In this document: positions 15,839 to 59,912 of the stretch, piece after piece | Numbering within the stretch: position 1 is the first letter of the stretch | How the letters are laid out: each line of letters opens with the position of its first letter | NCBI RefSeq assembly: GCF_014859505.1 | Contig: NZ_JACUUD010000001.1 | Span: forward strand, 26,110 to 90,109 | Direction: 5' to 3' | DNA length: 64,000 nucleotides | DNA from: Halomonas sp. | GTDB lineage: Bacteria; Pseudomonadota; Gammaproteobacteria; Pseudomonadales; Halomonadaceae | Notes under the pieces: model-generated | Databases searched by the model: none | Told to the model about the DNA's origin: nothing | What the model saw: the letters and a program-made list of their open reading frames with translations, nothing else | Program-made: the position numbers and the translations under genes

Positions 15839-15948
15839 GGAGAGGGTCCGGTCGGTGCATGGAAGGGGCGCGATTGTACCGGTTCTAGGCGCGCGTCACA
15901 CCGTGGAGGGACCCGAAAGGGCCATTGAAGATGGCTGAATCGCTCGGG

Positions 15949-16059
15949 GCTGTTCCGGCGACAAGCCTGCGGGGAGGCGCTGTGAATACCTCCTTGTACG
16001 CTACCGACGCCATCCCTGGCGTAGGACCTCCCCTTCGGCTTGTCCCCGGCGCCCCTCGC
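15949..16059. repeat. Dispersed structured intergenic repeat, copy 1 (forward orientation)
   Basis: gctgttccggcgacaagcctgcggggaggcgctgtgaatacctcc...gctaccgacgccatccctggcgtaggacc...ggcttgtccccggcgcccctcg; shares its backbone with copies at 24331-24444 and 59723-59831. Confidence 0.9.
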
Positions 16060-24330: not shown

Positions 24331-24444
24331 CCAAGGGAGCGCCGGGGACAGGTCGTAGAGGGGGTCCTATGCCAGGGATGGCATCGGTAGCGCCCAGGGA
24401 GGGGTTTACAGCGCCCCCTCGCAGACCTGTTGCCGGATCAGCTC
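24331..24444. repeat. Dispersed structured intergenic repeat, copy 2 (reverse orientation)
   Basis: Reverse complement reads gagctgatccggcaacaggtctgcgagggggcgctgtaaacccctccctgggcgctaccgatgccatccctggcataggaccccctctacgacctgtccccggcgctcccttggc. Confidence 0.9.
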
Positions 24445-24503
24445 CCGACGAAGGAACTTGAAATTGGCAGATAGGGCAGACTGGGGGCCTTTGTCGCTCG
24501 CCC

Positions 24504-59675: not shown

Positions 59676-59722
59676 CCCGCGATCGCCGGTACTGGTCGGC
59701 CCGGAGTGCCGCATGGCTCGTG

Positions 59723-59831
59723 GCTGATCCGGCGGCAGGCTTGTTCGGGGGCGCTGTGAACCCCTCCCTGGGCGCTACCGACGCCATCCCTGGCGTAGGA
59801 CCCCCTCCAAGCCTGCCCCCGGCGCCCCTCG
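59723..59831. repeat. Dispersed structured intergenic repeat, copy 3 (forward orientation)
   Basis: gctgatccggcggcaggcttgttcgggggcgctgtgaacccctccctgggcgctaccgacgccatccctggcgtaggaccccctccaagcctgcccccggcgcccctcg. Confidence 0.9.
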
Positions 59832-59912
59832 CCGCCGAACCGAGCCATTATTCCAGGCCGTATCGACACCGCCGTGCGGCCTTTTCATTCCTGAGCCACC
59901 ACGGGAACCCTT

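Follow-up and report, generated by a model that had tools for sequence, protein, structure and literature searches.

In the analysed window, a stretch of 64,000 nucleotides from a draft genome of Halomonas sp., three intergenic gaps contain copies of the same structured repeat (Table 1). Copy 1 has as neighbours an ORF of 188 amino acids without Pfam match and a gene for an ABC-F type ATPase, both on the minus strand; copy 2 is accompanied by a DUF6586 gene and a gene for an outer-membrane efflux protein, also both on the minus strand, and copy 3 by accC and prmA, both on the plus strand. The gene calls used for this context are crude ORF picks. In their alignment the three copies show a mean identity of 81%.

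The initial annotation had described three intergenic copies of about 110 bp with a long outer stem and one inner hairpin. Every string quoted there was found in its place and the copies are highly significant, but the unit comprises about 118 bp, since conservation among 40 same-genus copies sets in abruptly at GCGAGGGGC, stops as abruptly at GCCCCGAGC and is at background level directly outside. The outer stem is present but had been drawn too short, as GGGGC/GCCCC adds to it outward (15946-15950 with 16051-16055 in copy 1) and is covarying too. The acgcca/tggcgt hairpin exists but is joined by a second one that reads (TAC or CCC)-NTCCCT-(GTA or GGG) on the strand used there. The variable orientation towards the genes was borne out as well, but with the folding strand as reference copy 1 runs in the same direction as its neighbours, and copies 2 and 3 run against the genes beside them.

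Table 1. Positions of the three repeat copies and of their structural parts in the window, with the strand that folds and bears the GGA loops
Feature	Position	Strand	Remarks
Copy 1, whole element	15942..16059	minus	covariance model E 2.6e-26
Copy 1, long stem, first arm	15955..15967	minus	partner 16037-16049
Copy 1, long stem, second arm	16037..16049	minus	partner 15955..15967
Copy 1, apical hairpin A	16007..16022	minus	loop AGGGAU at 16012-16017
Copy 1, apical hairpin B	15987..15998	minus	loop AAGGAG at 15990-15995
Copy 2, whole element	24331..24446	plus	covariance model E 1.8e-24
Copy 2, long stem, first arm	24342..24354	plus	partner 24424-24436
Copy 2, long stem, second arm	24424..24436	plus	partner 24342..24354
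Copy 2, apical hairpin A	24369..24384	plus	loop AGGGAU
Copy 2, apical hairpin B	24393..24404	plus	CCC-AGGGAG-GGG
Copy 3, whole element	59717..59833	minus	covariance model E 1.6e-21
Copy 3, long stem, first arm	59729..59742	minus	partner 59809-59822
Copy 3, long stem, second arm	59809..59822	minus	partner 59729..59742
Copy 3, apical hairpin A	59781..59796	minus	loop AGGGAU
Copy 3, apical hairpin B	59761..59772	minus	CCC-AGGGAG-GGG

Fold, covariation and the folding strand

A single fold was obtained from RNAalifold and hand-checked alignment columns. Its outer helix GGGGC/GCCCC is followed inward by a helix of 12-13 bp (CCGG.GACAGGCC / GGCCTGTC.CCGG) and then by GAGGAGG/CCTCC as the middle helix. 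The fold is completed by two apical hairpins, of which hairpin A has a variable stem around ANGGAN and hairpin B consists of TAC or CCC, the loop ANGGAN and GTA or GGG. Among 42 same-genus copies 96.2% of the pair cells hold standard pairs and two-sided changes occur at 21 of the 37 pairs (133 cells compared with 30 in shuffles), so the compensatory changes initially reported for the outer stem are real. Sliding the partner by 1-3 columns abolishes this same-genus covariation (2-6 pairs left). In 104 copies taken class-wide all 37 pairs covary, with 1416 cells against 395 after shuffling and at most 298 in the slid-partner controls, the slid controls being the fairer yardstick because the structure had guided the alignment.

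In the long stem the sequence is free and the pairing is kept. In genome G039 the core is near-identical among copies and every pair of arms of about 30 bp is distinct and almost perfectly paired. Elsewhere in G039 the arms match nothing above chance level, for which reason a guide-like role was rejected. Some of the arm pairs are recognisably related (L101/L106/L108 and L097/L102); an inverted target duplication is therefore disfavoured as the origin of the unique arms and fast compensated divergence fits better. Two further copies of the Halomonas genome, L008 (G000:C119) and L011 (G000:C190), represent a subfamily with a common extra run of about 15 nt (CCCCGGGG.GCCGGACC), which lies in one arm of a stem and has no equivalent in the opposite arm.

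Covariation had been taken initially as an argument for selection on structure, but by itself it is no proof, because template switching can yield compensatory changes (PMC8794818). Support for selection comes from a strand-specific excess of G.U pairs. A palindrome without preferred strand is expected to contain G.T and A.C mismatches in equal numbers. On the strand opposite to that written in the initial annotation, the long arms contain 186 G.T (G.U) and 57 A.C mismatches (P=4e-17), and outside the own genus 178 and 39, respectively. Within the genus free local alignment put the arms out of register, so fixed structure columns were used, giving 12 G.U versus 4 A.C over all stems and 12 versus 2 in the outer stem. 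In all three window copies the GGA strand is predicted to fold more stably than its complement by 6.6-10 kcal/mol. From the mismatch asymmetry it therefore follows with high confidence that selection for single-strand folding acts on one strand, namely the complement of that initially written.

This polarity by itself does not tell RNA from single-stranded DNA. The G.U:A.C bias is independent of the direction of the flanking genes (SS 51:8, OO 58:13) and perhaps stronger where the upstream gene reads into the element (111:15 for reading into the GGA strand, 86:22 for the other direction; P=0.105). Both the divergence of the arms and their kept pairing agree with template switching (PMC8794818) in combination with selection on one strand.

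Distribution, mobility and known relatives

A covariance model search detected 11 full copies in the Halomonas draft genome (3.36 Mb; E 1e-21 to 1e-26), together with partial matches, mostly at contig ends, with up to three copies truncated by the latter. A relaxed core pattern was found at 12 places of this genome and its reversed control pattern at none. The element is present in 34 of 36 genomes of same-genus relatives (1-60 copies apiece) and in five further families of the order (16-55 copies). In a sample of the class 38 of 274 genomes carry it under a strict filter, and in a sample of the phylum the broader model gave 32 carriers among 399 genomes, every one of them Gammaproteobacteria; counts of absence are soft because the first pass of the covariance model misses weak matches. 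Named carriers include Marinobacter, Microbulbifer, Rheinheimera, Shewanella and Alteromonas as well as Xanthomonas, Stenotrophomonas, Methylotuvimicrobium, Yersinia and Sodalis. There are many more copies than three, and the suspected genus-level family turned out to be distributed class-wide. Transport as phage or plasmid cargo was rejected: the 58-nt consensus core gave no BLAST match in plasmids, phages or E. coli (short query, strict limits) and among 2.9 million viral contigs the pattern occurred in just 7.

Orthologous sites differ in both presence and orientation of the element. The accC-prmA gap, occupied by copy 3 in the Halomonas genome, is short and devoid of the element in the close relatives G002, G004, G007 and G027, and several close relatives have a terminator-like hairpin instead. 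In G011 the copy in this gap is degenerate and points the other way (L263, G011:C1:110130-110500), with hairpin A kept and hairpin B deleted. The site of copy 1 is empty in G007, G027 and G004 and occupied in opposite direction in G013; the relative G031 has another long palindrome there, imperfect and lacking the core (L268, G031:C240:12120-12580). Because of these differences, the sharp ends and the failure to find a conserved promoter or terminator block outside the element in 40 same-genus copies, we are confident that the element is mobile, and we regard it as non-autonomous. An autonomous sRNA gene of CsrB type was rejected on account of the same lack of a promoter block. Mobility is also indicated by direct repeats that flank the element in part of the family; those of at least 8 nt amount to 14.6% versus 2.3% in the named set, with no excess in the own genus. 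A Sodalis copy has the palindromic GATGAGTGAACTCATC on each flank, in agreement with YPAL target duplications, which are described as 3-26 bp long and located at dyads (PMC2229807).

In gaps between co-directional genes 44 copies have the direction of the genes and 56 the opposite one; with no orientation bias, a cis-regulatory UTR element of fixed direction was rejected. Inverted pairs are frequent (L093, L095, L097, L101, L113, L115, L124, L185, L233), the 5' ends facing each other at a distance of tens to about 100 bp and each copy having unique arms; the pairs in Xanthomonas (L174, L200) are turned in the reverse sense. One copy (L089, G146:C3) and the gene for RNase P RNA are on the same strand, about 65 bp apart, and in Stenotrophomonas (L173, L220, L244) short REP-like palindromes (e.g., GTCGACC..GGTCGAC) adjoin the 5' side of the element.

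Whether the repeat had been formally described was left open initially. In part it has, since the published 168-nt sequence of YPAL/RU-2 from Y. pestis (PMC2759123 Table 1b) holds the core gcgccAAGGAtggcgc...gagcctacATGGAtgtatttacggcgt; the family is thus known in one corner only and named only there, in Yersinia. When this core was compared with the window copies and with the Yersinia/Sodalis loci L139, L240 and L243, the twin-hairpin core proved common to YPAL/RU-2 and the window copies in sequence, order and strand, comprising an ANGGA-loop hairpin, gagcc, the hairpin tacAUGGAUgta, tttacggcgt and a long outer stem. Both are dispersed, mobile and intergenic. YPAL/RU-2 differs by its 168 bp, its longer ends and its restriction to Yersinia/Erwinia as far as known, whereas the window copies have about 118 bp and their own stem sequence; the Yersinia subfamily ends with CTGACAAA...TTTGTC, the window copies with GCGAGGGGC...GCCCCGAGC. 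The element almost certainly belongs to the YPAL/RU-2 superfamily, within which the window copies are placed, on their length and ends, outside the Yersinia subfamily. In the open-licence literature we found no description of CsrA-like loops or strand polarity of YPAL.

No Rfam family reaches its gathering threshold on the window. Ysr224 (RF02770), which Rfam built from the Yersinia form of the repeat, hits many copies in the correct position, but below the cut-off, with all window copies under the gathering score, and it models the complementary strand. TwoAYGGAY RNA (RF01731) also has two hairpins with loops of A-N-GGA-N type and was suggested to bind CsrA (PMC4333381), but its covariance model gave no match at E<=1; its listed sources are human gut, gammaproteobacteria and Clostridiales, and no report of it as a mobile repeat was found in the open-licence literature. 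The suspected REP/MITE-like repeat or structured RNA is indeed a structured dispersed intergenic repeat but not a REP in the strict sense. REP/REPIN sequences with RAYT are dispersed intergenic palindromes, too, but they measure 20-40 bp, bear a GTAG tag and go together with a Y1 transposase, whereas the element has about 118 bp, GTAG is found in the own genus only (other genera have GAGC in place of GTAGC) and a search for the TnpA-REP transposase revealed no Y1 transposase (Y1_Tnp, PF01797) anywhere in the Halomonas genome. On these grounds a classical REP/RAYT system was rejected.

A candidate CsrA/RsmA site and competing explanations

On the folding strand both apical loops represent A(N)GGA, the CsrA/RsmA motif. 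Although hairpin A lay outside the search pattern, its loop has GGA in 240 of 255 copies, A(N)GGA in 199 of 226 and the octamer CANGGANG in 145 of 226. The loop position that varies corresponds to the N of the general CsrA site (RsmE/CsrA motif ANGGA). The distance from GGA to GGA is 22-24 nt in 243 of 249 copies. Hairpin B agrees with the CsrA SELEX consensus RUACARGGAUGU, in which AC/GU are paired around a hexaloop (PMC7652899), at 12 of 12 positions in 14 copies and at 11 of 12 in 32; the stems of hairpin A exceed the length favoured by SELEX. Pairs of CsrA motifs were previously remarked in TwoAYGGAY and Bacillaceae-1 RNAs (PMC4333381). Taken together, motif, loop geometry and spacing give the predicted binding of CsrA about an even chance. 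CsrA is encoded in the Halomonas genome and was not found in one carrier that is 98% complete (G252). Its presence is not associated with that of the element (34 of 38 carriers and 201 of 236 others, tallied by eye; P=0.62), and co-occurrence was dropped as uninformative.

The sponge RNAs CsrB, RsmY and RsmZ likewise expose GGA hairpin loops at a spacing suited to dimeric CsrA, but they are single genes with own promoter, own terminator and many sites, whereas the element consists of 10-60 dispersed two-site copies without promoter block. One array, L286 (G508:C1:94417-95666), has six head-to-tail copies with a period of about 228 bp and twelve GGA loops in a CsrB-like layout; each of its units contains also a GTAG-type REP (GTAGGAGCGGCTTCAGCCGCGATAAG).

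With evenly divided confidence, we favour the explanation that the repeat is a small mobile element of the YPAL/RU-2 superfamily which is not autonomous and offers a twin CsrA site on its folded strand. The GGA strand (minus in copies 1 and 3, plus in copy 2) would fold into a long stem capped by two hairpins, would be transcribed by read-through from any promoter lying upstream and a single CsrA/RsmA dimer would clamp its twin hairpin. In this way each copy could act as a portable CsrA site, altering how stable the host transcript is and titrating CsrA, with mobilisation probably occurring in trans. For many copies transcription of the GGA strand is not obvious, because they have no promoter block and face the genes at random.

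Since the element carries no promoter and is oriented randomly towards genes, a function in transposition only is nearly as good an explanation, to be held tentatively. The GGA strand would fold as single-stranded DNA or RNA intermediate, a putative trans-acting transposase would read the loops and host genes would be bystanders. This agrees with a strand polarity that is independent of the neighbours, with the presence/absence polymorphism at orthologous sites, with the single-strand hairpin recognition used by REP/RAYT systems (PMC3733652) and with Y1 transposase genes being commoner in carriers (32 of 38 versus 153 of 236, again tallied by eye; P=0.024). The G.U excess with the upstream gene opposed (86:22) can be explained by a transposition intermediate no less well than by a CsrA site, and the modelling of Ysr224 on the complementary strand counts against the CsrA reading of the GGA strand. 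However, at least five carriers besides the Halomonas genome, some of them near-complete (G258, G295), are without Y1_Tnp match, a transposase need not give rise to exactly A(N)GGA with variable N, and direct repeats and palindromic targets, as reported for YPAL (PMC2229807), are unlike IS200/IS605.

We consider it improbable that the copies are stabilisers of mRNA 3' ends which, located near gene ends or terminators, would protect or destabilise the upstream mRNA with the loops being unimportant. Such a role was proposed for YPAL (literature summarised in PMC2229807) and relatives have terminator-like hairpins in the gaps of copies 1 and 3, but the loop sequence is strongly conserved and the G.U excess does not switch sides with transcription of the opposite strand, as this reading would require. 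That the covariation is just a template-switching artefact between inverted arms (quasipalindrome correction) without selection on the fold is very improbable, for although the arms are near-perfect with quick turnover around a fixed core and compensatory changes can arise so (PMC8794818), it predicts G.T equal to A.C, against 178:39 outside the own genus, and every stem of the three-way structure covaries.

These results unite a repeat so far named in Yersinia only with its counterparts from dozens of gammaproteobacterial genera, and the family is given a defined strand and a structure with heavy covariation; elements of this kind occur in numerous genomes and are for the most part not annotated. 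From the twin CsrA site favoured here comes a concrete prediction for the role of such repeats, namely that CsrA binds the element. If this binding holds, the copies would be portable regulatory RNAs. Mobile “portable CsrB” elements occurring class-wide in Gammaproteobacteria, with tens of twin-CsrA-site copies per genome, are a possible but rather doubtful extension; if true, transposition would rewire and buffer the CsrA/RsmA network.
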